Below are positions 11,701 to 50,674 of a stretch of 64,000 nucleotides of DNA, piece after piece. A model generated the notes under the pieces. The model saw only the letters and a list, made by a program, of their open reading frames with translations, did not search any database and was not told the origin of the DNA. The stretch's first letter is position 1, and each line of letters opens with the position of its first letter. Source of the stretch: Caenorhabditis elegans (taxonomy: Eukaryota; Nematoda; Chromadorea; Rhabditida; Rhabditidae); NCBI RefSeq assembly GCF_000002985.6, contig NC_003283.11:15005501-15069500 (forward strand), written 5' to 3'. Made by a program: the position numbers and the translations under genes.

Positions 11701-13723
11701 CGTTTTTCTCTAATTTTTTGGAGATAAATTTCTATCTGTTTCACGAAACCTAACTTGTAAACCTGTTCTCATTGAATGGTTTCTCCTTGAAAAAGAAAAG
11801 ATAAAAATCACGAACAAAGGGTACAATGAATTTTGCGTGAAATAAAAAGAATGATTGGAAAATCGAGAGGAAAAATACTATAAATACAGGAAAAATTGAT
11901 TGGGATGATCATCTGGAACAATACATCATTTTCCAGAAATATAAAACATATTTTAGTGATGTAAATAATCAATTTACTATATATAAAGCGCGTGTCCTTC
12001 CGTCCGTTTGTAGTTTGTAGTTTGATCCTAGATGTTTCAACTCTCTTTTATGTAGTTGGAAGAGATATTGAGTTAAGAGTTGGTGAGGGATAATGTCAAG
12101 GTACTGTAGTAGTACTGTAGGAGTACTGTAGGTATACGGTAGGGTTACTGTAGTTTGGGAAAAATTGGGTTTTTGTCTACAGAAGAGGTATTGGGTTGGG
12201 AGTGGGTGGGGGATAATGTCAAGGTACTGTAGTGGTACTGTTGGGGTGCTGTAGGATTATTGTAGGATTATTGGAGTTTGGTGGAAAATTGCGTTTTAAG
12301 TTTTTGAAAATGTATTGGCTTGGGAATTGGTGAGGATAATGTCAAGATATTTTGATAGTTTCTTGCTTAGAGTCGGGAACATTTGGGAAGATGTGAAAGT
12401 TTCATTATTTTTTCATAAGACATTTTTGAATGATTGTGTCAAACATTTCAAATGTTGCCGTCGTTGGCCGCGCCGTAGACGCGGTCAGCGGCTGGTAAAC
12501 GAATAATCGAGGTGTATGATGTGAAATTGAACCAGAAAAAAACAAACGAAAAACCAAAAGCTTCCGAATTTTTCGAAGTTTTGTCGGCTCTTTGATTTGT
12601 CACAAAGACTTTGTTTGGAAATTGAAAAGTGAGTTCTTTGTAGACTAAGTAAACTTGAAAATAAGTCATATTTAAACTATGTTGGTATATACATACATAA
12701 ATTTTCAGTTGTGAAATTTCACAATTTCTAAGAGTTAAAATTTGTTTTTAATAGTTTAAAAATACATTTGAGGCAAGATTTTCGTATGACGTTGTGATGT
12801 GAGAACTAGAGCGATGTTCCAAAATCTTGAAATAATTTGATAAACGTTGCAAAAGTGATGTTTTATATCTTCTTTTGTATTTTATAAATCCCCATTTCCT
12901 CTTTTCGGAGATCGTATTGTTTCCTGTATTTGAAGGCAATATGTTTTCAACTTTAGAATGTATTTTTGTGCCAAAAAACAAAAAATTATTCCTGTTTTTC
13001 TAGGTCGCTATACGATTTCTTTCTTTGTAAGTTGTCAACAATTAACAACCGTACCAATAATGTTCTAGAACATTGCAATTTGCGTGGCGAATAAGGGCTG
13101 GGCTACAGTATCTCGGGAGATTATTCGATACTTAAAGATGTTATTTTTTGGTGATAGAGTTATCGAAAAGCAAATATCAAAATGTAGTAAACGAAAATTG
13201 AAACTTTAGCTGAAATTATCTACAAATAGCTTTTGTTAAAGGAGGCTCCGGTTATTTGGAATACACATCCTCAAACTCGCTAATAAAGTAAGTGAAGGTG
13301 TTAAAGATGAATGATTTTTTTTGTTTAAATTTTTTCACACACCCTAGGTTTCAGAACAAGAAACGCTGTGAATATTAAGGATTTCGCATACGTTGAGAAT
13401 TTTTATAGCTTCACTTTTTTGGTGCATCCAAACGTTTCTATATATTTTTTTAAATAGTCGAGTTTCAGTTTTTACGTACCAAAAACTTTAGATTTTATCC
13501 ATGTCCGATTAGAGCTGAAATATCCTAAATAACCTTACAATATAACAAATTATAATTTTTTGTGGAATTTATTCATCGAAATGTGCCAGTGCTTAAAATG
13601 GGTGCGCGAAAAAGTGAGTGTAATAGGGAAATTTTTTTATATCCGACAAATTTTGGATTTCATGACGCATTTTAAGAAGACAAAAAATCATAGTTAGGCA
13701 GAATAAAAATGCAAGCAAAGCAA
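8723..13723. other. Large AT-rich intergenic region, no gene seen
   Basis: Five kilobases between two minus-strand genes. Open frames here (for example 9694-9957, 11277-11528 and 12748-12981) are low-complexity and rich in Lys, Phe and Asn, and lack paired splice sites. It contains many A and T runs and the tandem repeat listed separately. It would include the upstream control region of obr-2, but I see no site I can name. Confidence 0.6.
12060..12360. repeat. Degenerate tandem repeat, about 120-bp unit, three copies
   Basis: The phrase GGATAATGTCAAG(G/A)TA recurs at about 12090, 12211 and 12332. Each copy is preceded by a TATTG(A/G)GTT-like stretch and the first two are followed by clusters of TACTGTAG. 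The third copy is the most diverged. Confidence 0.7.
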
Positions 13724-20284: not shown

Positions 20285-23239
20285 CTACAAGACTGTAACT
20301 CCATCCGCAAATCTTGCAATTCGCTTCCAACTATTTTCTTTCAGCAATTCCTTTATCTCGTGAACAAGGTCCATTTCCATTCCAAATAGCCGTGTCTTCA
20401 TTTTCTGGTTTGATTTCTAAATTTTAAGAAATTAATTAATTTGAGCTTAAATAATTATCGTACATGAATCTTGTCCTCTGCTTGATCAATCATCTTTGTT
20501 ATTTTCAAAATTTCATGTTCCAAATGTTCCATATAATCTTCAATAGGCCCATTAAAACTTTCATCCTCGTCATCTACCATATTCGGGTCAATCATTTTGT
20601 CCTTCTCGAGAATTTGAATTCCTTTTTGAATCAGTGAATCTTTTGCTTGCGGATATTCATGAAGAGCCTCCCAAAGATCTTCTTTATCGAGAACATAAAG
20701 ATCAGAATATCTGAAATTAAAATTTGCCAAAGGAAAAGTTGAGAGCTTCAAATTACCCCTTGGATCTAACAGAAGCAGTTCTTAAATTCTTGTTTTTATT
20801 TCCAGGTATGTTTAGAATGGAAAGTTCTCCAAATACAAAGCCTGCCGGTAGAGTTACAAAAATCTGAAATAGCAAATTTCAAAAATCCGAGTCAGCTTTG
20901 AAAGTACCGTTTGACCATCCTCACTGACAACTTCCACAAATCCTTCCTTGACAATGTACATTTCGGTTCCAACATCTCCCTTTTTGCAGATATAATCCAT
21001 TGGGCTGAAATTAAATTTTTGTAGAACCCAACATCTCCCAGGCACCTCCGCCCATCACTATAAACTAGACACGGAACCCGGGAGTTGTCGGGCGCAAAAT
21101 AAGTGATGAAACGCGGAGAATTTATAAATTTTTAATTCGTAAGGTACCTGTATACTCGGAGCTGCAACTTCAAAATTAGCTCATACAATAGCCGCGGATC
21201 GCAACTCTAAATAATTCTTGAAGTCTCAAAAAATTGTGTATAATTCTGAAACCTCGAAAAGCTTGACTTTCTTCAAAGTGTCCATATGAATCTCCACTGC
21301 AATTTCTCCAAATAACCGCGGAGGCAGAAACTCGGCAATTTCCTCTTCATCAACTTGAGCCCCGCCATGAGCCCACACATAGGCAAAGTATTCGACAGCT
21401 TTTTTGCGGAGAAGATTTGGTACTTTTCTGGAATAAAGTGTGTTTTGTAACTGTAATATATCTGTTGGTTTCAAAAAACTCGGAGCTTAGCTACAAACAG
21501 GCCTGTCTATCTGCGTGCTTATATTATGCCTACCTACACCTACCCTTTGATACGAAATATTGTTTTGGATTCCGTTCTTCTGACAAATGTTGAAAACCGG
21601 TGCCAAATACTTTTGAAAGTCGCGAAACTTTGCTAGAAAGTTGCCCTAAACGGGTACTCACCTATAAACCATGAATCTTTTACATCCATCGAGAACATTC
21701 TCAAACTCTGACTTTCTCAAATTAATCGCCACCACCATATTACCGACATCTCCAACAATTACCGCAAAAATGACAAGACCCAGGAGGGTATCCCCAATTT
21801 CAAATGCATTTTGAAAAGTTGTACAAGGTGATGGCTGTTCTCCAAGTGTCACCAGAGTCAGTGCAGACCAGTAGAAGCTCAAAGCGTATTGGCGGAAAAA
21901 GTTGGCAAACTTTATGGTGGTAGTTCTAAAAAAATAATTTTTTAATTAAAAATAGTTTGGTAGGTTAACCTACTTATTTTCCCAAGTTGTCATATAATCA
22001 GTGACCGTAAACTGAACCTCATTCTCTGGTAGATGAGTGATAAGGAGGTCATCAGTATCGCAGAAATCTCTGTGATTCGGAATATCGGTCACACATGTTG
22101 CAAGTATTGGATTGATTATTTTATCGTAGGAGAATATCCAGTGCTCAAGCCGAGCCGCTTAAAAAATAATAACTTTGCAACATGTGAGTTTGTCTTTGTT
22201 TTTTTCAACAATTATCACAAACCAAAAACAGTAGGCAGGAAGTCACGTGGACATGGATGCAGTACCTACCTACCAAGCATCACCGGTAATTTTATATTTA
22301 AACTAACTTGTATAATTATAGACTTTACTTATGTAAAAGTAAAGACATCCATTCCAATGGAAAATCACAACGCAAATGAAAATGAGCTTAAATAGCCCAA
22401 AAGCGTGAGGAGATGTCGTGCGGGTGTCCGTTTGAGTTGAGAAATCGAATAGGCGGTAGCACTGCAAATGAGTTTCAGTTTTACTTTAAAACCAAAAATA
22501 ACTTGCCTTAGTCAGCCGATTGATTCTTGACCAGAAGAAACTGTCTCCAAAAATGTGCAATGACTCGGCAGGAACCACTGCGATGACATCTAATATGAAG
22601 AATGTTCTGAAGTTAATTTTAATTTGACATAACTTTCACGGAGGTGATGAAAATTTTCCCATAAGACGGGCTTAGGAGGGGGACAACAAAAGGCGTTCCA
22701 TGAAACAACTTACGATTTCAATCTATGATGCATAAGCTTTGACAAATTCTTGACCGCAACTCCATTTTCTACATATTCAATTCTTGTATGTGCTATCAAA
22801 TCCAATATATTAACAAGATCAAGTAAAAGATTCAAAGGTCCTGTGTTTCGAAGAAATGGATGAACATCTTGAAAAACCGATAAAGCTGTGAAGACAAGGG
22901 GATGGAGAGCAACCAAACTGACAAGCCCAGTCCATAGATAAAAAGTATTCGAATGTTCATCAACGGTAAATGACATGAAACCGGAACTTTTCTCGTCATC
23001 TTCTTGTTCTTCTCTCAACGCTTCTCTGAAATTGGTCTCAATATCCACGTCATTCTTTCGAAATAGATGAAGCCGCTTTTGAGCTCGTTGCATCCATCCT
23101 CGAAGTGCCTGAACAGAAAAAGAGAAGAATTATTTACTGTTATTTCAAAAAGGAAAAAAAAACGAACATATATCCTGAATACAATTCCACCAAAAGTTTC
23201 TCGACGAGCTGATGAAGTCGTCGATACATTCTCTGCCAT
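20285..23239 (-). CDS. cng-1: Cyclic-nucleotide-gated cation channel subunit
   Basis: This is a six-transmembrane channel opened by cAMP or cGMP. Translation likely begins at 23239 ([14 protein letters not shown]). S1-S2 lie at 22.7-23.1 kb. The S3-S4 region ([21 protein letters not shown]) is near 22.5-22.6 kb and S5 ([18 protein letters not shown]) near 22.3-22.4 kb. The pore exon at 21.66-21.92 kb has the filter [11 protein letters not shown], including the glutamate typical of CNG channels, and then S6 ([14 protein letters not shown]). The cyclic-nucleotide-binding domain covers 20.7-21.4 kb ([54 protein letters not shown]). The tail is charged, possibly coiled, and the last exon ends at 20285. 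The pattern is of the principal (A) subunit type. The symbol is recalled from F14H8.6 beside obr-2. The exon 1 donor (about 23160) is weak in my reading. Confidence 0.87.
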
Positions 23240-23987
23240 TTTGAATGAAGAAAATGAGATAAGGAATATGAAAGTGATGGAGAAGAAGATGCGAATTTCC
23301 GGAAAACATTATTTATGAGAAGATGGGCACGCACATCAGCAGAAGGAGGGTCCGAGGTGTACATACATAGATGAGGTATGTAGACTATTTCAAATTGAAA
23401 TTGCTGTTAAACAAATAATGTTCAATTAATTTTCAATCTATACTTTATAATCGTTTAATTACATGGAACACTGTATATCTCAAATTATATAATTGAGCTA
23501 CAGTTCCTTTTTCTCAACCATATGGCTAACCATAATACACAATTTGTCGACGCCCTGTCGGGCATCTCTCGAAAAATTAATTAAATCCAAAGACACATTT
23601 GGGAAGTGTGTGGTCATTCCATATTGCAACGGACACCCTCCGAGTTCCGCCACCTTCAACCCTTTGCAGGTGGAAAGGCGGAGGCTATCGAGGGGAGGAA
23701 AATGGGGGTCTCGCCGCGCACTCTACATTCATTCAACAATTTAGTAGATGCGCCTTTGAAGATATTGTTGAAAATATACGATTTCAAAACTCTACAGTAA
23801 CTTTAAAAGCGCGTTCGTGAAAGTTTTTAAAAAAGAAAAAAGTCCAGATTTATCTCAATAAATAATTATAAAATTTTAATGAAATTAATGTTTGAATATA
23901 ATAATTTTAAAAAAACCAAACCGTGAACTCAAAAAAAAGTTTTTTTGGGAATCAACTAAAATTAATCAATATCAGTTTCAAACCAAA
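23240..23987. other. Divergent upstream region of cng-1 and the small gene at 23988
   Basis: About 750 bp between divergent starts. The part at 23.6-23.7 kb is less AT-rich than its surroundings and is open in several frames, but no start or splice pair supports a gene. I cannot name a regulatory site. Confidence 0.4.
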
Positions 23988-24628
23988 ATGTCTATGATTT
24001 TCCTAATTGTATGCAGTGCTGCTGTCTTGGTGAGTAAATAAGGCCTGTTTTTTTTTTTAATGTTTCAGATTATACATTGATTTTCTTCCGTTCTCGGGCA
24101 CTTAAAGGTACATGAATTTATTCTAATAGGTCTCACCGCAAAAAGAAAGTTTAGGTACGTTTTCTTCCAGGCATTTATGCCAAATTTTTTCGTTTTTATC
24201 GATTTTAAAGTACAACAGTAATTTAAAAACAAACACACCAACCTCAGAAATCAAAATGTGCCATACCATACATTTTTTCACGGCAAGACCCATCCAATTA
24301 AAGCTCGGCTCCTTTAAGATAAACTTGCGAAATTTCGGAAAAAAAAATTTTAAGACCCGGTTTCACTATACCTATTTTCCGTTGCGAGACCCTCTTTTTT
24401 CAGTTCTCAACTCTCGTTCACTGTATGTCATCTGGATCGAACCGCCCATCATCGAATCGTCGTGGTCTCAACAGAGATCCAAAAATCGACCCGGATATTC
24501 AAAAGCAATATGTTCCACTTCTTCCAAATTGGGACTCACAACTTCCAGAAGTTCTCGAAGAATCGATGAAAGTTCAGTCGAAAGTTCGAGCGGAAGATGG
24601 AAGAGAATCAGTTATTGATAACATTTGA
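23988..24628 (+). CDS. Small protein with possible signal peptide, unknown function
   Basis: Two exons: 23988-24029 (14 codons, MSMIFLIVCSAAVL) and 24404-24628 (74 codons plus stop), 88 residues. The first exon and the start of the second (FSTLVHC) could form a signal peptide. Alternatively, translation could start at the internal Met of the second exon (MSSGSNRPSSNRRG), giving a 67-residue cytosolic protein. The rest is polar and charged (DPKIDPDIQKQYVPLLPNWD, then a helical, acidic C-terminus ending DNI). I do not recognise it. The 374-bp intron contains a GCGAGACC repeat fragment also found in other introns of the window. Confidence 0.55.
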
Positions 24629-24998
24629 AGCATTTTTTTTGGCAAAAGTGAACTATTTTTGAAATGAATTTTATTGTCGATTTGTTTTTGAAGTTAACTT
24701 TCCAATAGTGACATGAAAATATATAGTAAGGGCAGCATAACCTCTTCACACCGTGAATGCATATTGACAGTGTGGGGAGGGTTTCAGAAGAGGCATGTCG
24801 GAGGTACCCCTGTCCCTAAACCAAACAGAAGTGTAATATGTTGAGCGGTTAGTTTAAACTCCGAGAATTTGAGGTACTCTCCGATCAAACTTTCCAGATA
24901 TTCCGTCGAACAGAGAGCAACTTCTGTGAGGTAACAAGTAACATCAGGTCTCGTCTTAATTGTAAATTGGATTAGAAGTTTGGAATTTATTCATTTAG

Positions 24999-25042
<44 letters not shown>

Positions 25043-25489
25043 CTATATATATATATATATATTTTTTTTTCTTTTTGGAAATCTTAAAATTGAATATAAA
25101 CAAATTTAAAGTGAAAAAAGTTTATGTGGCTCGGTGGTAAATTTGATAATACTTGGTTATTTATTAGTTTTGCATTTTGAATATGTACTTTTTTAAATTC
25201 TGTTTCAATACATTGATAATTGAAATCTTTTGAATACTTTCTTCAATGTTGCAAAAAAAGGTAAATTGCGGAATAGACATTATTCTGCAAAAACTTGATA
25301 CAATTGCTAACACTAATGCAAAGATGAATTTATTTCAGACGTAAATAAAAAACAATAGGTATATACGGAACTCTTTCTGTAACTGGAAATTAATATACGA
25401 TCTCTAGGTTTTTGGTGCAGTTAACAAATATTGTTATTAATTTCATTTTACTTGTGATATCATATTGATTAATAATAATTCAATTAGGT
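24629..25489. other. Intergenic region with an AT microsatellite
   Basis: Very AT-rich. It holds the (AT)n run listed separately. I see no gene. Confidence 0.5.
25000..25062. repeat. (TA)n microsatellite
   Basis: About 20 TA dinucleotides, an AACT interruption at 25041-25044, then about nine more. Self-complementary, so it can form a cruciform or hairpin. Confidence 0.95.
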
Positions 25490-26049
25490 TTTTTAGCTAG
25501 AAAAAAGGAGATGGCTGACTATCAGATTTTAGAAATTGCTCCTCGCTTAAAATTTGTGTAAAATTGAAAAAATCAAATAATTTAACGCAATTTTCAATAA
25601 TAAAGGTTCCAAACCCCAGGAAAAAGTGAATATTATTTTGTTTTTGTGAAAATTTGCTCTTTTTGTCCAGTTGAGAACAGAAATTCATCGTCAATGAAAA
25701 ATGAAAGATTAAGCTTGTGACAAATAATGTGTAAGATTTTAAAAACTTACCTCAAACTGCGAATATCCTCCATTTTTGTAAGTTTTCAAATATTCATTGA
25801 ACAAATTTTGATCACAATTTCTCCATTGTTGAGTCAAAAATGTACTCCCTGTTTCCAGTAGCTCAAACGCTGAAGTTATTGTACTCATATTTTTAGAAAT
25901 AAATTTGGAATAACTCACATGTTAGAAATAGGAAAATCCGCAATTTCACAGTATCTAACATTCCTTTCAGCATCAACTTTTTGGAAATCTGGTTGAAATC
26001 TGATGCTTCTGAATTCTTCCAAATACTTCATTAGGTTTTCATGATCCAT
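25490..26049 (-). CDS. Possible small gene, tentative
   Basis: From an ATG at 26049 (MDHENLMKYLEEFRS) an open frame runs to a GT donor near 25919. A second exon at roughly 25750-25885 (FELLETGSTFLTQQWRNCDQ) ends at a good GTAAG donor. A short third exon could run to a TGA at 25490-25492. The acceptors of the second and third exons are weak in my reading, and using the better-looking TTCAG near 25871 breaks the frame. This may be a real small charged protein or a decaying fragment. I do not recognise it. It is divergent from the start at 26642. Confidence 0.35.
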
Positions 26050-26641
26050 TTCAGTTGTTGTTAAACTCTATTTAAAAATTCAATTGCTAAAAATTAAAAG
26101 AATTAAATAACAGAAATATTTTAGAATAGTTGGAACAATGTTTCGTGTCCTCTAAAAATGAACATAAGGAAACTATGAAAAGGTCGAAATATATAGAGGA
26201 CATCGCTTTGAAACATTGCGAAATTTTTCAAAATCTCGCTTTGCATTTTTTTAAAATTATGACAATCATTTAAAATTTAGAAAAACCGCAAACGTTTTAA
26301 TGCTGCTTGGCAACAGTCGAGAATTTTTCGAAGTTTCCAACGTTATTGCAAAATATTAATTTGTGTGGCGTCATATTTTTATTATAATTTCTGGACATCA
26401 AACAAAGTGTTACACCCGTCACCGAGGGCACCAGATGTTTTGAAGATGACACACAAAAACTGCACAACAAACCGATTATAAATAAAACAAGAGACTATAA
26501 TAAATTGTGAACTTTTACAATTTTTTTTTGAAACTATTTTTTATTTTACGCGACCTTTAAAAAAGTTTAAAAAAAAAAAGTTTGGTTTTCTGATCCCGTT
26601 GTCGCAATTTATTTCAAAATTTTCAAAAAACGGGCGGAACA

Positions 26642-27428
26642 ATGTTTAGCGATGTTTTAAAAAAAATTAATGCTCAAGAAATATACAAGGTATTCCAATT
26701 TTCGGTTAATTTCGCAAATACAATTTCAGCGTCATATTGACATTTTCCATACTTATGACAATATTGATGGATTGGTGGCGTTAGTTTTTCAGATTTTCAG
26801 ATGCGTTTTTGAATTGTTAATATTTTCAGAGCATTTGTCCGCAATGAACCATTTGATATAATTGCCACAGCCTCGGCTACTAGTACCGTACTCGCCATGT
26901 GCTCCAGCAAGGATCGACAAGCGGTAAGTGTTTCAGTTTGTTCCGGTAATTCAAGGATTCATTTTCAGGACCGTAAAAAATCTAAAAAGGCATCCGCAAC
27001 CAAGTCGTCTCGTGCTTCAAAAAGTCAAAAATCCGCGAAGTCGACGAGATCTGGAAAGTCGTCCAAATCTGGACACTCAAGCCGTGGAAAGCCTTCAAAA
27101 TCCAAGAAGTCGAAATCAAAGAGCGTTAGACCTCTTGCAGTCCCCGGAGCACGGGTAGCTCCTAATTCGGAATCGAAGAAGCTGAGACGTGACAAGGACA
27201 AGTCGTCGAAATCAGAAAGATCCAGAAGATCTTCAAAGTCTAAGAAGTGCGACAAGTCGGCCAAGAAGTGTGACCTGAACAAGGCGAAGGTGATTTTTTC
27301 CACAGTTTTGAATATAAAAACAATTCAAAAAATTTCAGAAGAGAAGTCCGAGAAATCGAAGGCTCTCAAATTGGTTCCCAATCAGTCGAACTACACATTC
27401 CCGGAGGGACAGGGGACTGCCTCAGTGA
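26642..27428 (+). CDS. Possible chimeric gene: unrelated 5' exons joined to MSP copy A
   Basis: Two short exons (26642-26689, MFSDVLKKINAQEIYK; 26730-26779, RHIDIFHTYDNIDGLV) and a third beginning at 26830 (AFVRNEPFD) have good splice sites and correct phases. The third exon passes without a break across 26861, where sequence shared with the MSP copies begins, and continues in frame through MSP exon 1 to 26923. Exon 2 (26969-27289, 321 bp) is the Ser/Lys/Arg-rich region. Exon 3 starts at 27339, but a 55-bp deletion relative to the other copies shifts the frame and a TGA follows at 27426-27428. The predicted product is about 200 residues, very basic, with no MSP domain. If the 49-bp intron (27290-27338) were retained, the frame would instead stay open into the MSP region. 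It could be a new chimeric gene or simply a pseudogene. I do not recognise the 5' exons. Confidence 0.45.
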
Positions 27429-27794
27429 AGACATCCACCCTTCGTGCTTCACCCAACAAGCTGCCATTCGCAACAACGGGTGGTGTTCAGACAGTTAGCA
27501 TCGCGAACAACACCAAGTCGAGAAAGGCGTTTAAGGTAAGCTTTGGCCTTTGGCTTGGGCTTTGGCTTCAGGCTCATTAAAAACAATAGCTTTCAGGTCA
27601 AAACCTCTGACAATCTTCTGTACCGTGTCAACCCAGTCTTTGGATTCGTTGAGCCGGGAGACAAGCTTTCGATCGATGTGCTCCGTCACAATGGTGTTGA
27701 GAAGACTGATCACATGATTGTCTTAACATCCAATGCTTCATCAGAACAAAATTGTGCCAAAGGAGTCTTCGAGAGTGACCAACCACGCGAGCTT
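26861..27794 (+). pseudogene. MSP-domain gene copy A, truncated and rearranged
   Basis: This is a direct repeat of the copy starting at 28911. It matches through the Ser/Lys-rich exon and the MSP exons (LVPNQSNYTFPEGQG; VKTSDNLLYRVNPVFGFVEPG). It differs by a 55-bp deletion at the start of exon 3 (after 27340), by GCC ATG TGC in place of GCC ATG GGC in exon 1, and by lacking the 4-bp insertion of the other copies. It is cut after GAGCTTACC and joined to sdc-3 sequence at about 27795, losing the last residues of the MSP domain (VIPLVVN). The sdc-3 part is in a different reading frame, so no MSP-SDC-3 fusion protein results. Confidence 0.85.
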
Positions 27795-28358
27795 ACCTCG
27801 GAAGTGGTGGATTCTTCCGTGTTGCTCTTGCCATCAATCGGAAGGACGTGAAGCCAATGAGTCAACAGTTCCGAGACTTTTTCATCGAGTATCTAAAAGA
27901 TGTAAATGAAAATTATGCGAAAGCGGTAGAATTGGTCCAAATGGATGAAGACAAACTGATGGAAGCTATGATTGAAAAAGCGGGTTTGTCATCGATAGAT
28001 CTGCTGGCTTTGGATGAAGATGTTCAGGGACAAGTTAGTGAGAGGTATGATTTGGTTCAGAACCCACAAACACAATTCTGTACTATAAAAATATTGTCAA
28101 AGATTTTAAAAAGAAAATTGTATTTTCAGTCACAAACATAAATGCGTTCAATGTTCAATCCGTAACCAATCCGTATACTTCTCGTCATATTCACTTTTGG
28201 AGCTACACGGAAAACTTCACCAAAACCTGCACGAACTTGCTCCGGAAGACGCAGATGACTGTCAAGATTGCTATGAAACGTTGACATCATCATTTGAAGT
28301 TATCGTTCATCGAATCAATCACCATCATTCTCGTCGTTGCTTCTTTGCAGACGATTGA
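27795..28358 (+). pseudogene. Duplicated 3' end of sdc-3 (zinc-finger exons), promoterless
   Basis: This copies the distal part of sdc-3 exon 13 (from GGFFRVALAINRKDVKP onward), the following intron and the last exon, including both C-terminal zinc fingers (CVQC...H..LH and CQDC...H..NHHH), down to the stop at 28356-28358. The sequence is intact with working splice sites, but it has no start of its own, and upstream lies MSP copy A in another frame. An ORF could begin at KPMSQQ's Met (about 27857) and splice to encode an approximately 155-residue zinc-finger fragment; expression is unknown. Confidence 0.9.
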
Positions 28359-28879
28359 AATTAGTTTTACAATTTTATCACAACCAGTGATTTTCGACAT
28401 ATCTGGATAGTGAACTTGAAATATATATTAATTGAAAAGAAAAAGAGAATACAAAGAATCTCTCATGCCCCCCGTTTATTATAATTAATTGAACTCATTC
28501 CCAACAGATCTTGAATTGTTTTGTTTTGTATATTATGAACATATTGAATGAATTTTGTGATAATTAATTTCAAAACTAAACTGCAAAGAAGTTTTTTATG
28601 AAATGGCAAAAGTAAAACTAAATATTTAAATTTGTATATTCAAACTATTTTTTTTGTAAATTTAAAATTTTGATTTCCGTGAACTCAAAAAAACTTTTGA
28701 AGAAATCTTGAAAACAAATTTGATTTAAATTTCAAAACGTGACAAAACTTCAAAGGCCAAACTGATTTTATCAGTGCCCCCCTCAATCAGTTTCCAAAAA
28801 TTCAGTATTCAAAACTTGTCCATATATTGGAATTTTCGACGAATAAAGAAGTACCAGCTGGAATTGAAAGATCTGAACG
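28359..28879. other. Intergenic region inside the left arm
   Basis: AT-rich spacer between the sdc-3 fragment and MSP copy B, mirrored at 33336-33856. It would hold the B-copy promoter. No gene is seen. Confidence 0.5.
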
Positions 28880-29920
28880 ATGATCTCACTGGTTTCTTTG
28901 ATTGCCACAGCCTCGGCTACTAGTACCGTACTCGCCATGGGCTCCAGCAAGGATCGACAAGCGGTAAGTGTTTCAGTTTGTTCCGGTAATTCAAGGATTC
29001 ATTTTCAGGACCGTAAAAAATCAATCTAAAAAGGCATCCGCAACCAAGTCGTCTCGTGCTTCAAAAAGTCAAAAATCCGCGAAGTCGACGAGATCTGGAA
29101 AGTCGTCCAAATCTGGACACTTAAGCCGTGGAAAGCCTTCAAAATCCAAGAAGTCGAAATCAAAGAGCGTTAGACCTCTTGCAGTCCCCGGAGCACGGGG
29201 AGCTCCTAAGTCGGAATCGAAGAAGCTGAGACGTGACAAGGACAAGTCGTCGAAATCAGAAAGATCCAGAAGATCTTCAAAGTCTAAGAAGTGCGACAAG
29301 TCGGCCAAGAAGTGTGACCTGAACAAGGCGAAGGTGATTTTTTCCACAGTTTTGAATATAAAAACAATTCAAAAAATTTCAGAACCTCTGCCCACCGGTC
29401 TCAGATGTTTCCGATGCGTCCATCAAATCAAATTCTGGGGAGAAGTCCGAGAAATCGAAGGCTCTCAAATTGGTTCCCAATCAGTCGAACTACACATTCC
29501 CGGAGGGACAGGGGACTGCCTCAGTGAAGACATCCACCCTTCGTGCTTCACCCAACAAGCTGCCATTCGCAACAACGGGTGGTGTTCAGACAGTTAGCAT
29601 CGCGAACAACACCAAGTCGAGAAAGGCGTTTAAGGTAAGCTTTGGCCTTTGGCTTGGGCTTTGGCTTCAGGCTCATTAAAAACAATAGCTTTCAGGTCAA
29701 AACCTCTGACAATCTTCTGTACCGTGTCAACCCAGTCTTTGGATTCGTTGAGCCGGGAGACAAGCTTTCGATCGATGTGCTCCGTCACAATGGTGTTGAG
29801 AAGACTGATCACATGATTGTCTTAACATCCAATGCTTCATCAGAACAAAATTGTGCCAAAGGAGTCTTCGAGAGTGACCAACCACGCGAGCTTACCGTCA
29901 TTCCATTGGTGGTCAACTAG
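28880..29920 (+). pseudogene. MSP-domain gene copy B, frame broken by 4 bp
   Basis: The exons are 28880-28963 (MISLVSLIATASATSTVLAM, signal-like), 29009-29333 (Ser/Lys/Arg-rich linker), 29383-29634 and 29696-29920 (MSP domain, ending VIPLVVN). Exon lengths are 84, 325, 252 and 225. Three are multiples of three; the second has one base too many because TCAA is inserted near 29022 relative to copy A, giving a stop just after DRKKSI. Without it the product would be about 293 residues. MSP-domain proteins of this type are usually sperm or cytoskeletal. It may be a pseudogene, or an unrecognised splice or start may restore the frame. Copy C has the same change. Confidence 0.7.
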
Positions 29921-30523
29921 ATTCTACATATCTGCCTCCCTAAAGAAAGTGTCTCGAAGTTCAATTATTTGAAAGTGTGTGAAATTTGATGAATTTTTGA
30001 TTGAATAAAAATGTTGATGGCGGTGTTCTGTGTTTTTTGGTTCTGAGCTATTATGGTTACCAAACGTACGAAACAATAAACTATTTTCTCCTTTTTCATG
30101 AATTACTCGGTAACTGACTTTCTCACGGAAGTCTTGTGAGAAAGCGCCTCTGAGTTGGGCTTTTGGTAGAGACGCGGATCATATTAGCCTTTTTCTCGCC
30201 CGTGAGGCACCTCCAATAAAGTGTGAGGTGCAGAAAAAACAAACTAACATTTTTGTCGCAGTCACCGAGGACCTAGGATGAGTTCAACTCTCCACCACGG
30301 GAAAATTTTTTGCGAATTTTTTCATCCCAAAAAAAAAAAAGAAAAAAAAGGTCCAGAAAAAAGAAACAAACATTTTTGTCGCAGTCACCGAGGTTAATTT
30401 AATTGGTTTGAAGAGGTACATGGTGATTACAAATAGGTGGAGATGACGGGTGTACAGTGTCCCCAATTTTCATAGTATCATGCCAAAATTTGACAAAGGG
30501 ATAGGGTTAATAGACCGATTTTG

Positions 30524-31691
30524 ATCACACTAATACCCAAAAGATCAATAGAATCCAGGGAAATATCCAGAAGAGACAAAAATACGAATACAAGTATTCT
30601 GGAAAAAAGCCGAACCAATTCCGCCCAACAGTATAATATGGTGTTAATATGAAAAACTCAAGCGATGTCTGATAGAAGTTCACAATTAAGCATATATAAT
30701 AATAATGACGTGCCTTACAAAAGTAGCCGCCTAAAATCTATACCAAATAATTTATTCTAATATCAAAATGAGATTTATTATATCCTGTTTTTTTCCCAAA
30801 CTACTCATCCACCACCTCTCTCGACATCTGACGACCTCCACTTGCTCCGGCCACCAGCTTGATCTTCAAGTGTGGAATCTTAGTTCCAGCACTGTCCGCT
30901 GCTTTGAACGCAGTCTTCGGATCTTGCACATCATTTTCAATTTGGAGGTATTGAACGATCGCTTTATCCTTTTGAATTGGTCCGGGCATCCGATTGATTG
31001 TCAGTTGGCGGCACTTGTTCGGCTCGATGATCATGTGAGTTGGCTCAACACGAAATAGTGCATTGCCACATCTCACTTTGATCGCCATGCGTTTTGAGGT
31101 GAAGTTGACCACCATATGCTCCGATTTTCCGCCGGCATTTGGGAGTTTGGCTTCCTGAAATTTGCTGCTGTTTTTTTTACCTTAGTACTATTTTGGAAGC
31201 AATGCAAAAATATCTTACCTCTGGATCAATTGCTAGTGGCACTTTTGAAGATTCTGAGTTTGCCTCATCGATTTCGTCCTTCTTCAAACTCTCCGTCTTA
31301 CTTTTCTCTTTTTCCATTACTCCGAAGTTGTAGTTTTTGAAAACTGAGAACTGATTCACTTGCTGTTTTGCTTCATCTATTTTTTAATTTGAAAGGTTAA
31401 ATGGTTCAACGTGGAGTTGCACGCATTGTTCACGTATTCTTTATTTTGTGGATATTGGATTTCCCACATTTTTTAATTGGCAAACCCTTTTTTATATTAA
31501 TGCTTTACGTGTATACCCTTGCACTATTCCGAAAAACCTTATTACAATTGTCGAAAATATTGAGGAGCACTGTAAACTGAGAAACGTCGATCTGACATAT
31601 GTTTGTTAAATAAGTGCATCTGTTTTACTACTTTCGGGGGTCTAAAATTCTAAGTCTACAGTATTTCTAAGTCATACTGTAGATTTTCTTA
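30524..31691. other. Unique spacer of the inverted duplication
   Basis: 1,168 bp not shared by the arms. It contains the MSP-domain gene listed next and its flanks. Nothing else is seen. Confidence 0.85.
30801..31317 (-). CDS. MSP-domain protein in the palindrome spacer
   Basis: Two exons: 31317-31219 (33 codons, MEKEKSKTESLKKDEIDE, acidic/lysine-rich) and 31154-30801 (117 codons plus stop), 150 residues. The second exon is a full MSP domain: KLPNAGGKSEHMVVNFTSKRMAIKV is followed by the strand pattern CGNALFRVEPTHMIIEPNKCRQLTINR and then the last strands (PHLKIKLVAG). It is clearly different from copies A to C (other N-terminus, other MSP sequence, no Ser/Lys linker), so it is not a product of the duplication. 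MSP-domain proteins act as sperm motility or signalling components or membrane-contact adaptors; sperm expression is a family-based guess. Confidence 0.87.
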
Positions 31692-34419
31692 CAAAATCGG
31701 TCTATTAACCCTATCCCTTTGTCAAATTTCGGCATGATACTATGAAAATTGGGGACACTGTACACCCGTCATCTCCACCTATTTGTAATCACCATGTACC
31801 TCTTCAAACCAATTAAATTAACCTCGGTGACTGCGACAAAAATGTTTGTTTGTTTTTTCTGGACCTTTTTTTTTCTTTTTTTTTTGGGATGAAAAAATTC
31901 GCAAAAAATTTTCCCGTGGTGGAGAGTTGAACTCATCCTAGGTCCTCGGTGACTGCGACAAAAATGTTAGTTTGTTTTTTCTGCACCTCACACTTTATTG
32001 GAGGTGCCTCACGGGCGAGAAAAAGGCTAATATGATCCGCGTCTCTACCAAAAGCCCAACTCAGAGGCGCTTTCTCACAAGACTTCCGTGAGAAAGTCAG
32101 TTACCGAGTAATTCATGAAAAAGGAGAAAATAGTTTATTGTTTCGTACGTTTGGTAACCATAATAGCTCAGAACCAAAAAAACACAGAACACCGCCATCA
32201 ACATTTTTATTCAATCAAAAATTCATCAAATTTCACACACTTTCAAATAATTGAACTTCGAGACACTTTCTTTAGGGAGGCAGATATGTAGAATCTAGTT
32301 GACCACCAATGGAATGACGGTAAGCTCGCGTGGTTGGTCACTCTCGAAGACTCCTTTGGCACAATTTTGTTCTGATGAAGCATTGGATGTTAAGACAATC
32401 ATGTGATCAGTCTTCTCAACACCATTGTGACGGAGCACATCGATCGAAAGCTTGTCTCCCGGCTCAACGAATCCAAAGACTGGGTTGACACGGTACAGAA
32501 GATTGTCAGAGGTTTTGACCTGAAAGCTATTGTTTTTAATGAGCCTGAAGCCAAAGCCCAAGCCAAAGGCCAAAGCTTACCTTAAACGCCTTTCTCGACT
32601 TGGTGTTGTTCGCGATGCTAACTGTCTGAACACCACCCGTTGTTGCGAATGGCAGCTTGTTGGGTGAAGCACGAAGGGTGGATGTCTTCACTGAGGCAGT
32701 CCCCTGTCCCTCCGGGAATGTGTAGTTCGACTGATTGGGAACCAATTTGAGAGCCTTCGATTTCTCGGACTTCTCCCCAGAATTTGATTTGATGGACGCA
32801 TCGGAAACAACTGAGACCGGTGGGCAGAGGTTCTGAAATTTTTTGAATTGTTTTTATATTCAAAACTGTGGAAAAAATCACCTTCGCCTTGTTCAGGTCA
32901 CACTTCTTGGCCGACTTGTCGCACTTCTTAGACTTTGAAGATCTTCTGGATCTTTCTGATTTCGACGACTTGTCCTTGTCACGTCTCAGCTTCTTCGATT
33001 CCGACTTAGGAGCTCCCCGTGCTCCGGGGACTGCAAGAGGTCTAACGCTCTTTGATTTCGACTTCTTGGATTTTGAAGGCTTTCCACGGCTTAAGTGTCC
33101 AGATTTGGACGACTTTCCAGATCTCGTCGACTTCGCGGATTTTTGACTTTTTGAAGCACGAGACGACTTGGTTGCGGATGCCTTTTTAGATTGATTTTTT
33201 ACGGTCCTGAAAATGAATCCTTGAATTACCGGAACAAACTGAAACACTTACCGCTTGTCGATCCTTGCTGGAGCCCATGGCGAGTACGGTACTAGTAGCC
33301 GAGGCTGTGGCAATCAAAGAAACCAGTGAGATCATCGTTCAGATCTTTCAATTCCAGCTGGTACTTCTTTATTCGTCGAAAATTCCAATATATGGACAAG
33401 TTTTGAATACTGAATTTTTGGAAACTGATTGAGGGGGGCACTGATAAAATCAGTTTGGCCTTTGAAGTTTTGTCACGTTTTGAAATTTAAATCAAATTTG
33501 TTTTCAAGATTTCTTCAAAAGTTTTTTTGAGTTCACGGAAATCAAAATTTTAAATTTACAAAAAAAATAGTTTGAATATACAAATTTAAATATTTAGTTT
33601 TACTTTTGCCATTTCATAAAAAACTTCTTTGCAGTTTAGTTTTGAAATTAATTATCACAAAATTCATTCAATATGTTCATAATATACAAAACAAAACAAT
33701 TCAAGATCTGTTGGGAATGAGTTCAATTAATTATAATAAACGGGGGGCATGAGAGATTCTTTGTATTCTCTTTTTCTTTTCAATTAATATATATTTCAAG
33801 TTCACTATCCAGATATGTCGAAAATCACTGGTTGTGATAAAATTGTAAAACTAATTTCAATCGTCTGCAAAGAAGCAACGACGAGAATGATGGTGATTGA
33901 TTCGATGAACGATAACTTCAAATGATGATGTCAACGTTTCATAGCAATCTTGACAGTCATCTGCGTCTTCCGGAGCAAGTTCGTGCAGGTTTTGGTGAAG
34001 TTTTCCGTGTAGCTCCAAAAGTGAATATGACGAGAAGTATACGGATTGGTTACGGATTGAACATTGAACGCATTTATGTTTGTGACTGAAAATACAATTT
34101 TCTTTTTAAAATCTTTGACAATATTTTTATAGTACAGAATTGTGTTTGTGGGTTCTGAACCAAATCATACCTCTCACTAACTTGTCCCTGAACATCTTCA
34201 TCCAAAGCCAGCAGATCTATCGATGACAAACCCGCTTTTTCAATCATAGCTTCCATCAGTTTGTCTTCATCCATTTGGACCAATTCTACCGCTTTCGCAT
34301 AATTTTCATTTACATCTTTTAGATACTCGATGAAAAAGTCTCGGAACTGTTGACTCATTGGCTTCACGTCCTTCCGATTGATGGCAAGAGCAACACGGAA
34401 GAATCCACCACTTCCGAGG
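31692..34419. repeat. Right arm of the inverted duplication (original sdc-3 locus side)
   Basis: Mirror of 27795-30523. It carries MSP copy C and the real 3' end of sdc-3. Because sdc-3 continues beyond 34419 only on this side, this arm holds the ancestral sdc-3 sequence and the left arm is the copy. Confidence 0.95.
32295..33335 (-). pseudogene. MSP-domain gene copy C, same frame break as copy B
   Basis: Same length (1,041 bp) and exon plan as copy B on the opposite strand, including the TCAA insertion near 33193. One coding difference is visible (Ser in place of Arg when the linker to exon 3 is read in the alternate frame, an A/T change near 32811). It lies 3' of sdc-3 in the same orientation, with about 520 bp between the sdc-3 stop and its ATG. 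Confidence 0.7.
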
Positions 34420-37400
34420 AACATCCGCCAGCCATAGTAGATCATTTCCTGGAAAGTCAGTCTTTCATGAAAAAGAGTGCAAGCATATTCCATCAGTGAA
34501 ACATTTCTTGCTGGTTAAAAAGTTAACAAAAATTCAAATTAAATTCATTCAGTATTTTTTCTTTTAGATTTGCACATGTGAGATAAAAACTGTCAAATTG
34601 AAGCAAGGAGCGCAAGTCTAATAAAAAAATACGGTCTAAAAAACTCACCAATCTTCTCTTAATATACTCTGGATGTGCCCACGACACCTGTGATTGTGCA
34701 GTCATACGGAGCACACTTTTCATGTATGCTCCAAGTAGCATATTCTCCGTTGAGTTCAGCACGTCTCGATCTCCATCTGTCAACATCCCAATTTCACATC
34801 GTCCAATAATTTTTTCCTTCATTTCAGTTATATTCGAAATGACTCCGTGGAAAGTAAATGGAGTGATTTTCTGAAGAAAAAAACATTCCATTTGAAAGAG
34901 AACATTTACTTACGTGATTGTTGAGATGAAGTGAAGCTTTTTCGCGAAGAGCGTGTGCTAATTTGTTGTAATCAACTACTGAAAATTAAAGTTCAAAGTT
35001 ATAAACCTTCTAGAAATTTGAACTTACGTGGCTTGTGCTCTTGTGATAATTTCTTCGGGAATTGTGTTAACAGCTTGATAAAATCGTCGTCAAAACCTTT
35101 GATTCTATCAGTAACGGTCATGCTGATTTCTGGAAAAATACACAACAGACATAAAAACGTTTTTTTCAATCAAAGACTTACTGTAAATTTGTCCACTAAT
35201 GTTTCGATCACTGAACAAAATGCGTACCAGAAGCATAAACTTCTCCGGATCCGTCATGAAAGCTTCATTGATTTCCTTCCAAATAATCTGTGTCATGAAA
35301 AACTTGTGAACCGGCTTCTCATTTTCCTCAAAAACTCGAATAATCTTCAACGGAAGTGTCTCGTGCTCCTCAACGGATTTACAGTTGAAGTTTGCTTGCA
35401 CAATACGGCAATCCGCATTCTCCACACCTTCCTCAATTTTCACTTGAACCCTTTCCATCAAAATTTCACATTCTCGTTTCTGCGGGGGTTCTCCGTTGAG
35501 TTCAAGTTTTATATCGTCCAGAATTTGTTGCTGCTTTTCCGCACGGAGTCGTTTCTTGGATTTGCGAGAGGTTTCTGTGATTGCTGGAGGTGCCATCCAG
35601 TTTTCATCTTCGATTTCTATTTTCACTGGTCTGAAAAATAATTAATCAGAAAATGATATTTGCATGGTTGAGTAAAAAAGTCTCTCCTTCTAAATCTGAT
35701 CTTCAACCGATGTCATCTGATCTTTCACCAATAGCATCTAGTTTAAATCTCATCCTCTAATTAATCGTTCTATATCTCACACTTATGGTATCAGATCTAA
35801 ACCTATGGTTTCTGAGCTTCCACTTATGGTACGCCATTGTGTGGTGCCAGACCTAGGTAGAGCTATTGCATTTCTTCTAATCTTTATTTATCGAAACTTA
35901 TGGTATCTGATCTTCCACTTTTAAATCCCCATGATCCCACACAAATTTAACTCACCCTTCTAAGTTCGTCACTGTCGCAGATTCTCCTCTCTCTGCCGAT
36001 CTCTCCACATCGAACACCTCAAATATGTCCTGCACAGATTTTGGGAGTTGTTTCAGTTTCTCAGAAGCTCCATCCGGTGAAACAGAATCTCTTGCAACTC
36101 CCGTCCGTCTGGCAGGTGTTGGTGAAGCATTAGTACCTGCTTGAGATTGTATACGCATACGTGGAACCGGATTGTTTTTGGAAAGGAAAAGACGTTTGCT
36201 TCTACTTGTTTTGACACTAGATGCAGTTGATTCCCTTCCTGTTCTTAGGGATGGTGTTTCAAATCCTTCCTCTCCTACATGCCCAGGCCTCTCAGTTTCA
36301 TGTAAATCTTCTGGCTCCGGAGTAAGTACTCTTGAAACATCACTATCATTTGGTTCTTCCACTTTGGCTCTTTTTTGTCTTCTTGTAGCTGTAGCTTCTT
36401 CGGAACTGACATTGGCCATTCTTTTGCGTGATTGTTGTGTCGGAGTAGGAGCCAGCTCAATTTCTTCCGTTTTCGAAATCGAAGTAAAAACTTTTCTGGC
36501 CTTAGCAATATGCGGTGGAGTTTTCTTCCTTCGGCGTCCTCGTTTCTTTGAACTTTTAGGATTTGGTTGCAAAACCTCATCTTGTAGAACCTCATCATGT
36601 ACAACAATCTCCGACGGCGATGGTGCACCTGCTTCGTCCAGTTCTCCGTATTCACCCAGCAGCTCTTCAGTCGAGTACTGATACGCGGTAAGTTTATCGT
36701 TTTGAACTTGCTCAACCAGATTGATCGGTCCATTCGGATCGGTTTCAGACGAGATAACTTGAACATCGTCATCGCTAGAATGAGCTCGGCTGGGAATATT
36801 TCCCTCTGGTGCAGGCACGGGTGATGTCTCAAATAACGGCAGCGCCTCAATAATTGGTTCGAAAACTTTATCTGAAATTTTTTTTTGAATTTTAAAGAAA
36901 AATCAACAATACTTACCTGGCTCTTCAATTTGTTGCTCGATTGGCTCAGTTTCTAGTTGAGCTGCTGGTGCAGGTACAGGTTCGTGTACAACTTCTGGAC
37001 CAACTTCCGGTTCTACTTGTTCTTGTTCCTCTACTACTTCTGGCTCATGTGCAGCCTCTTCTTTCTGTCCTCTTCTCGGCTGAATTCTTTTCTTCAAATT
37101 TTCTTTCACTTTCTTCGGACGTCCACGTGTTGTTTTCCCAGACTTCTTTTTAGGTGATTCTTCAGCGACAGGGGTTTCAGTAGCTTCGGGTCCAGGAGAC
37201 TCCGTTCCGAGTAGTTCGTCTACAGTATAAATATGTGAAGACGATGGGATGGATGATCCTTCTGAAAAATATTATTCGATTGCTGAAGCTTCAAAAAATA
37301 AATTAACTTACCCTGTAAAGTTGGTCCCTCTGAAGTCACATTTTCTTCTTGTTGATTAGTTACCGGAACAACCGATCCTTCAACTTCAACTTCTGGAACA

Positions 37401-48264: not shown

Positions 48265-50674
48265 ATGCGACGAAATCTTCTATATAACTTCTACATAACC
48301 TTCTACATATTACTTTCAATCTCATCGTTTTTTGTCGAATGCTGCGACAAAGGATTAACTCAATTGAGGCATAAGGATACCCTTCAGCTGATGAGATGTG
48401 TGCCTACTTTGCCGGTAATTTTTTTTTCGGATTTCTGTAAAAAATTGTCACAATTTCTGGAAATCAATACTCGAAGATTATCAGCTGCCGATGTTTTTTA
48501 GGAGGACAAAAATAAATGGTATATACCATTTATTTTTGTCCTCCTAAAAAACACATTCAGAAAATTTGAAATATGCAAACATTTTATCATATGGAAAAAA
48601 AAACATTTCACCTAAATGTATACATTTTTTTCAAAATAATACTCCAAAAAAAGTTGTTCAAAACGTTAATTTAATTGAAACTCTAAAATTTCGGTGACCG
48701 ATTGTTGCTGGTTACCGGACATGTTAGCGTTTGGCGATTTCTGGTTGCCACACAGCCATGGATCAGTTCTAGAATATTTTCTTTTACGCTGCTACCGTAC
48801 CCAACCGTACCAGTACAGTGTATATCCGAGAATAATCTCCGAATCACGCTAGCTACCGTACCCCCAACAGCTCCACCGTACGCGCAATTTTAAACTTTTC
48901 CAGGGACACCCGGACCCCTGCATTCTCCAAACTGGAGGTCAAATGAGCTTCTGCCAACCGGATGGAAGTCAAGATTATGTGTGTTGTGGAACACCTGAAC
49001 TGCTGGTTAGGTTGGTTGGTAATCAGAATAAGCAATCATATCCAGAGAACTGGAACTTTTATCCAAGGCAATCACATTACGACTATAGTGTCTATATCAG
49101 GAGTTCGAAAGGTTAGCTGTGGTAGAAGAATTGTCTTAAATCTGGAAATTTAGAACAACTAGAAAGTGATGCTGCTTTCAAAAATCAAGTAATTCTAACG
49201 ACTCCGAAGACCACGACCACGACGGTTACAACTACGAGAAAACGGCAACCGGTGAAAGTATGGGTTTCTAAGAATTTTTTTGCGCGTAAAATCTGATACA
49301 TTTCGGTTTTTTTTTTCCAGAAATCCAACGTTGTTCTTCAAATGCTCACAATCCCGTCGTTAAGCCGTGGAAACTACTCAAACTCTCTGAAACTTCATAC
49401 AAATTCTGTTCTCGTTCGGGATGGTGCATGCGTTTTTGTGGTAGATACCGGGCTGCCGTCTCAGAAAAAACAAATCTCAAAAAGTTTGTTTCACTATTTC
49501 CATTCGGCTCATTTAATAATGTTTTCAGATTTGGCATCATATGGTGCTCCAGCAAAGAAAATAAAATTTGTAGTGGTGACGTCATCACAGCCTCAGTTCT
49601 CAGGAAATTTGAATTTATTCCCATTTTCACAGTTCATAATGGCCGACGCCACAATGTACAAGGATAATATCGTTTTTATGAAACGATTTGAAAAGGTGGG
49701 AATTTGATTGATGACCGAGTTTTTTTTCTTCATTTTCTCGGCCAGTTGTGAAAATTTGCTTTAAAAATACGGTACCTGGTCTCGCCACGACAAATTTTTG
49801 TTAGATGCATAAAGGTGTGCGCCTTTAAAGGGCAATGCAGCTTCGAACAGAAAACATGTAAAATTACTGTAATATTTAAAGGCGCACACCTCTTCACATG
49901 GAACAAAAATTTGTCGTGGCGAGACCGGGCATCGTGTTATGATTGCAAAAATGGAATAGGATTTGGTTTTTTTGTAGTTATAATTTTCCGGCCAATGAAT
50001 CTGCAAGCTTTTTTTTTTATTTTTGCGGGAAAATTCTCAAAATAGTATATTTAAATCTGGCCACGAATGATGTATTTTCAAACAGAATTCACGAAAAGAG
50101 GTGTGCGTATTCAAAGGACTACTGTAATGGGGTTATTCAAGTAATGTCGGAAAATTAAAAAGTGTAGAAAAATTACGTCACAACTGTATTCAAGTATATA
50201 AAAACATGTATTTTTCGTTTCTATAGGTTTTCAACAAAAAAGTTAACAAGAAAATGGAGAAACTGGTTGCTGTACTTCTTAAAGGCCTTTTTTGCAAATA
50301 GCAAAATTTCGAAAATCGTGGCGAGACCCATTGCTTTCCGAATTAAATGTTTTACGATTTAACAATAACATTTTCAGCATTCAATTCTGGAATTATGCTC
50401 TCCGAATTCTCTAATTCAGTCGACACCCGGACCCACTCCAAACTCAATAACCGTAATAATTCGAAACGTGGATTTAATGGGAACAATTGCAATCGCCGGC
50501 GCCCTCTTCCCAAATGGAAACGATTTAAACGTTTTCGATCGGAATTCCGTGTATGATATCGATAAATTGATCGAATCACGAAATCAGGTGATTTGTGAAG
50601 TTGATTGGATTGTCCCGGCGAGCTCTTCTCCGTTCCGTGTCACACAACTGCACAGGACAAATGCAAACTGTTAA
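48265..50674 (+). CDS. Secreted metallo-beta-lactamase-fold protein, catalytically degenerate
   Basis: The start at 48265 directly follows TTTCAG, a likely trans-splice site. Exon 1 (to 48414) encodes a signal anchor or peptide ([24 protein letters not shown]). The exon from 48904 has a Cys-rich segment ([17 protein letters not shown]). The exon near 49155-49258 is a Thr-rich linker ([13 protein letters not shown]). The next exons form an MBLAC1/SWIP-10-like beta-lactamase fold: [20 protein letters not shown], then [18 protein letters not shown] where active relatives have THGHSDHVGNLNLFP. The last exon (from 50380) has [16 protein letters not shown] and [10 protein letters not shown], where relatives have TPGHT and AGDLF. 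All the usual metal ligands are therefore replaced. It ends at 50674. An extracellular, non-enzymatic role is inference. The junction near 49100-49155 is the least certain. Confidence 0.8.
48492..48553. repeat. Perfect 62-bp palindrome in an intron
   Basis: Each 31-base half is the exact reverse complement of the other, centred between 48522 and 48523 (GGTAT/ATACC) with no spacer. The half begins TGTTTTTTAGGAGGACAAAA. It lies in the first intron (48415-48903) of the beta-lactamase-fold gene. Confidence 0.98.
49772..49929. repeat. Inverted-repeat element in an intron
   Basis: Outer arms GGTCTCGCCACGACAAATTT and its complement, and inner arms AGGTGTGCGCCTTTAAA and its complement, enclose a short loop with TACTGTA. 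It lies in the 49696-50379 intron of the beta-lactamase-fold gene. A related pair occurs at 55.0-55.5 kb. Confidence 0.85.

Follow-up and report, generated by a model that had tools for sequence, protein, structure and literature searches.

Long near-perfect inverted repeats of Caenorhabditis elegans have been described for paralogous gene pairs, and gene conversion has been proposed for them (Zhao et al 2007, PMC1803023). Transfer between adjacent gene copies, inverted ones included, is also known from work on interlocus conversion in Caenorhabditis (Katju and Bergthorsson 2010, PMC3966223). Repeats of this type are usually taken either for recent duplications or for long-lived arms that conversion keeps alike. 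Mosaic insertions, in turn, arise by template switching, microhomology-mediated break-induced replication (MMBIR) or theta-mediated end joining (TMEJ). In the present study, we analysed a 64,000-nucleotide window (the whole stretch, positions 15,005,501 to 15,069,500 of contig NC_003283.11), in which a left arm (L) and an inverted right arm (R) lie downstream of the dosage-compensation gene sdc-3, R carrying the 3' end of the gene. We consider it reasonably probable that this inverted repeat represents the most recent layer of a scar left by DNA repair, in which an older inverted block broke and was repaired from R.

The locus resembles the pairs of Zhao et al in that the arms run over genes and intergenic DNA with high identity. 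In those examples the gene pairs also occur in C. briggsae and/or C. remanei; here, by contrast, the sdc-3 copy is a 3' fragment and both copies of a major sperm protein (MSP)-domain gene are predicted to be frameshifted, and a third copy and mosaic matches point to a layered origin. The kilobase-scale near-identity of a conversion-maintained inverted repeat is present, and intact paralogous genes in both arms are not. The surviving conversion tracts in PMC3966223 cluster at 50-200 nt, whereas the corresponding tract here would be about 2.1 kb and ends at a non-homologous junction. Several non-contiguous donors joined with little overlap make the locus similar to MMBIR- or TMEJ-like mosaics; in contrast to a one-event mosaic, the pieces differ in divergence and are not of one age, which they could be if conversion followed.

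Exact alignment, which the earlier note had proposed together with a count of the differences, bore out its two near-identical inverted arms around a 1168-bp spacer, and the left start was moved to 27796, since base 27795 lies outside the arm. Over 27795-30523 against 31692-34419 there were seven differing columns, one of them base 27795 itself. The remaining six in 2728 bp (A in L at 29405 for T in R, an indel at 30032, A for G at 30339, an indel at 30341, G for C at 30363 and A for G at 30485) represent three true substitutions and three homopolymer length differences, as the 30339/30341 pair reads A12-G-A8 against A10-G-A9, that is, two length changes. When the genome (100,286,401 bp in 7 contigs) was searched, with 40 of 113 first-look candidates scored, the only other full-length match to an arm was the partner arm. 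A dispersed repeat of about 117 bp is situated at the inner ends of both arms (30278-30393 and 31822-31937), and at least 30 matches to it, each at 90% or above, are spread over all six numbered contigs (C1-C6).

The evidence that carries our reading comes from a third partial copy of the MSP gene (T), which the earlier note overlooked, together with the mosaic left flank and spacer. This copy extends from 36 nt upstream of the ATG as far as GAGCTTACC, within the last exon, where it joins the outer edge of L exactly, the sole overlap being a common CC. For polarisation of T, L and R, two paralogs on chromosome V were used as outgroups, O1 (16.237 Mb) and O2 (16.516 Mb). L and R have in common two derived substitutions (T to G in the second codon, and C to T) and a derived 4-bp insertion; at all three places both outgroups are like T. 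Private to T are a 55-bp deletion and two substitutions, the latter polarised by O1 only (O2 is missing at one of these sites and shows a third base at the second). Because of the common derived changes that are absent from T, L and R share a more recent ancestor with each other than either does with T, over the stretch that all three share. This grouping, like the identities and the junctions, is a direct observation. Absence of the same changes from the adjoining T may also mean that the arms have existed for longer than their near-identity suggests; a younger outer arm would account for it too. Between the arms, L is derived at 30485 (by comparison with the donor) and at 30363 (with two dispersed copies checked), and R is derived at 29405.

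The pieces also fall into layers of divergence. Substitutions per aligned site were 41/1713 for the chromosome IV matches, 28/1179 for V 15.105-15.109 Mb, 1/53 for V 14.778 Mb, 4/937 for T against L, 3/625 for inner L against R (2 after treating slippage) and 1/2102 for outer L against R. These counts, which exclude both V 14.782 Mb pieces (89% and 95%), give layers of about 2.4% (chromosome IV and V matches), 0.45% (T and inner L) and 0.05% (outer L). The inner/outer boundary was fixed by the end of T and was not picked from the differences between the arms, and the significance tests used lengths of 626 bp for the inner part (29897-30523 is 627) and 2101 bp for the outer part. T together with inner L was older than outer L by substitutions (p = 0.024; strict count, p = 0.047) and by all events including indels (11 against 1, p = 0.0006). 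Over 27796-28900, 4.9 substitutions would be expected at the rate of T and inner L, and none was seen (P = 0.007). The same pair (0.45%) was in turn younger than the chromosome IV match (2.4%, p = 1.5e-6).

From these data we infer a break, a strand invasion and an order of three steps. In the first, at matches now about 2.4% diverged, pieces from chromosome IV and from V 14.78 Mb would have been joined here; the V 15.105-15.109 Mb segment is common to the inner end of R and may have been copied in either direction. In the second (about 0.45%), T and inner L would have existed as a single block, an inverted copy of R that began 36 bp ahead of the MSP start and ran to the inner end; the outer end of this block would have been fused in frame to the chromosome IV-derived exons. 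In the third (about 0.05%), a break would have cut the block after GAGCTTACC, inside its last MSP exon. The inner of the two ends would then have invaded the matching exon of R, and 2.1 kb of outward copying would have taken in the MSP gene, the region upstream of it and the zinc-finger exons of sdc-3, after which the new end would have been joined to the other broken end at the 2-nt CC microhomology. T would thereby have been left truncated and the left arm composite, the two arms now forming an almost perfect inverted repeat of 2.7 kb. Break repair is the simplest reading because T ends where L begins, T matches the divergence of the inner arm and the outer arm is nearly identical to R. Under this model, R would be the donor and L the recipient, with copying directed away from sdc-3. 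The model predicts an intermediate in which T continues into GTCATTCC and the inner arm, without the sdc-3 copy.

Several observations weigh against this order of events. With substitutions counted strictly, the inner part (2/626) does not differ significantly from the outer (1/2101, p = 0.13); the differences are few, and the inner part holds long, fast-mutating A-runs. T and inner L differ in age from the chromosome IV match, yet their edges meet without native sequence between them, so that the order of steps is not unique: there may have been a later insertion at the seam, or R may have homogenised an older copy. The V 14.782 Mb pieces (89% and 95%) are more diverged than the others, and the adjacent chromosome IV pieces, 25138-25732 and 25733-26860, differ from each other (4.2% against 1.4%, p = 0.0007). 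Formation of every piece at one time, without subsequent conversion, was rejected on the unequal divergence.

The main rival is arm-to-arm conversion; as the differences are few, the significance is modest. According to this explanation, which we regard as possible and on balance unlikely, T and the whole left arm formed in one chain of template switches, and conversion between the arms later erased the differences of the outer 2.1 kb. It would account for the end of T abutting the edge of L, for the oppositely oriented pieces of one 4-kb locus (V:14.778-14.782 Mb) on the two sides of the block, an arrangement expected of a single chain, and for the derived changes common to L and R; conversion between C. 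elegans paralogs is, besides, established (PMC3966223). However, the tract must reach the outer edge exactly and cover at least 27796 to about 29400. Among 7,829 C. elegans duplicate pairs, tracts had a mean of 117 bp and a range of 12-2,958 bp (tabulated in PMC3966223). Such a tract is thus possible but long, and the explanation is less economical than break repair.

A simple recent 2.7-kb inverted duplication, the outer edge of which fell by chance against T as an unrelated older MSP copy, appears improbable to us. The very low divergence between L and R and the grouping ((L,R),T) agree with it, but it must then be coincidental that T meets L exactly, that the 3' remainder of T is missing and that T and inner L are equally diverged. 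An assembly artefact, with one arm duplicated in silico, is very improbable and had nothing in its favour here, as the arms differ at six places, their flanking sequences differ at either end, and neither R nor the related copies compared have the L base at 30363 or at 30485. Equally poor is the case for a transposon-like fold-back element, which has in its favour the long inverted arms and the dispersed repeats near their inner ends; the arm edges lie inside an sdc-3 coding exon and inside a copied segment, and the candidate was rejected as no further full-length copy with the same arm ends was found among the 40 of 113 candidates scored.

The block in which L is embedded is itself a mosaic. 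Apart from two stretches of 50-61 bp, 24963-31816 matches other places, namely chromosome IV at 8.71 Mb, chromosome V at 14.778/14.782 and 15.105/15.109 Mb, and the sdc-3/MSP segment itself (Table 1). Adjacent segments come from separate donor loci, as in a template-switch mosaic. The junctions overlap by CC at T/L, by A between the chromosome IV segment and T, and by at most 5 nt with a mismatch at 25138-25142; the overlap is 0 nt between L and the V 14.778 Mb segment and at 25732/25733. The pieces within 24963-25142 and the one at 30524-30576 match the single 4-kb V:14.778-14.782 Mb locus in opposite orientations, with no other match found, and 30577-30626 (50 bp) has no match elsewhere in the genome. 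On chromosome IV, the 2.8 kb between the two matches holds a PARG-like gene, and a patatin-like domain follows shortly downstream of the second copied piece; from order and frame, 25733-26860 probably contains the first exons of a patatin/iPLA2-like gene together with the region upstream of them. The segment 30627-31816 extends 125 bp into the right arm. To the left of the block, 21000-24962 has no match elsewhere in the genome, the search skipping simple repeats. Successive template switches are a plausible origin of the older layers, but the ages differ and no claim is made for one event.

The gap in the chromosome V copy of 30627-31816 corresponds to a 3030-bp insert (V:15106170-15109199) that is absent from the copy in the window. 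Because its ends are inverted repeats (CTAGGGAGTATTTTAACTATACGG..., 45 of 45 compared bases in agreement) and TGA flanks it on each side, this insert reads as a transposon.

Table 1. Features of the inverted repeat and of its surroundings (positions in the window)
Feature	Position	Strand	Remark
Copied segment in two pieces (24963-25004, 25066-25142)	24963-25142	-	95% and 89% to V:14782179-14782298
TA repeat splitting the V 14.782 Mb pieces	25005-25065		no match found
Copied segment	25138-25732	+	93% match to IV:8711290-8711901
Copied segment	25733-26860	+	97% match to IV:8714718-8715847
Predicted fusion open reading frame	26642-27851	+	chromosome IV-derived first exons joined in frame to T; predicted exons only
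Third partial MSP gene copy (T)	26861-27797	+	adjoins outer edge of L; 4 substitutions and 2 indels against the arms
Left arm (L)	27796-30523	+	2728 bp; 99.8% inverted match to right arm
Copied sdc-3 3' coding end	27796-28358	+	partial penultimate exon 27796-28044, intron, last exon 28130-28358; identical to R 33857-34419
Outer L	27796-29896	+	1 difference to R in 2101 bp; probably a fresh copy of R 32319-34419
Left MSP-domain gene copy	28937-29931	+	predicted exons 28937-28963, 29009-29333, 29383-29634, 29696-29931; PF00635
Inner L	29897-30523	+	2 substitutions and 3 homopolymer differences to R; probably the remainder of the older inverted copy begun by T
Copied segment	30524-30576	+	53 bp, 98% identical to V:14778389-14778441
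Copied segment	30627-31816	+	near-identical to V:15105227-15106169 and V:15109200-15109438
MSP-domain open reading frame in spacer	30801-31181	-	PF00635, 7.2e-19
Right arm (R)	31692-34419	-	outer end runs straight on into sdc-3
Right MSP-domain gene copy	32284-33278	-	same 4-bp insertion as left copy
sdc-3 3' coding end, right arm	33857-34419	-	functional copy, judged by continuity with the gene

The name sdc-3 is the label that the earlier note gave to this minus-strand gene, and sdc-3 is paired with C25D7.3 in PMC3331833. Its last coding exon encodes two CxxC...H zinc-finger-like motifs and gave no Pfam match at E 0.01. When the two SDC-3 zinc fingers are mutated, dosage compensation is disrupted with more than 95% XX-specific lethality, and the fingers are essential for X localisation (PMC8825453). 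The exon copies in the two arms are 5.5-6.6 kb apart. Beyond R, 34420-36900 has no match elsewhere in the genome (simple repeats being skipped by the search); because it matches only itself, R holds the real sdc-3 3' end and L a fragment, in agreement with the earlier claim that the zinc-finger exons are duplicated in the left arm and that the gene continues from the right arm only. The description of the left copy as promoterless was incomplete, in that a predicted fusion gene with a copied chromosome IV upstream region lies just upstream of it. This predicted gene does not continue the sdc-3 frame.

In the predicted fusion gene, the 55-bp deletion of T would shift the frame after normal splicing, and the reading frame would stop; if a 49-nt intron were retained, translation would continue across the MSP part and end in a tail of 17 residues, for which the sdc-3 fragment is read in a frame other than its own. 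Both arm copies of the MSP gene are predicted from their sequence to be frameshifted: relative to T and the two paralogs they have a 4-bp insertion in exon 2, leading to an early stop in the predicted mRNA (read in the left copy; the right has the identical insertion). The frame of O1 is intact throughout. The PF00635 scores were 41.3 bits (1.6e-10) for the exon 4 frame of the arms and 68.1 bits for the spacer frame, above a cut-off of 25.9. A GATA-type palindrome (CTGATTTTATCAG) lies at 28762-28774, upstream of the MSP copies, and is mostly conserved in the two paralogs; we take it to be a possible spermatogenesis promoter element. The suggestion that the opposed MSP copies would yield long double-stranded RNA was wrong as stated, as transcripts of inverted copies are of the same sense and not complementary. 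AATAAA signals lie inside the arms, at 30004 (+) and 32211 (-). Because transcripts are same-sense and each arm holds such a signal, double-stranded RNA would need read-through or antisense transcription. Within 24900-35000, RNA families gave no match at gathering score. Elsewhere in the window there are a tandem repeat (12059-12346; 123-bp unit, 2.3 copies) and a self-complementary inverted repeat (49755-49949; 70% over 197 aligned columns).

Neither sdc-3 nor C25D7 occurs in the main text of PMC1803023 or in PMC3966223, and the available part of PMC3857721 has nothing on this locus. Judged by titles and the beginnings of abstracts, in a search outside which most subscription literature lies, no description of the locus was found, and none was found of template switching with chimeric genes and mutation accumulation.

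Overall, the adjoining third copy and the outgroups reveal layers within one left arm, and the inverted repeat looks like the scar of repeated repair, judging from its sequence, and not like a functional element. The earlier suggestion that the arms exchange sequence was partly upheld, since the derived changes common to L and R and the layers of divergence are signs that L received R sequence after an older inverted copy existed. Ongoing transfer into sdc-3 found no such backing: the changes that could be polarised agree with copying from R to L, and within the sdc-3 part there are no differences to show direction. The presence, a few kilobases from this essential gene, of an identical second set of its zinc-finger exons matters for sdc-3 genotyping, guide design and short-read variant calls. 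A likely consequence for sdc-3 is an unstable neighbour, able in principle to feed sequence into its zinc-finger exons. More speculatively, and with little expectation that all of it holds, the site downstream of sdc-3 may have been repeatedly broken and patched from homologous and distant templates, yielding an in-frame fusion gene (a chromosome IV leader and MSP gene, terminated by the copied 3' end of sdc-3) and an inverted donor from which variants can be written back into the zinc-finger exons. If this were true, natural sdc-3 alleles may differ through conversion from the left arm.

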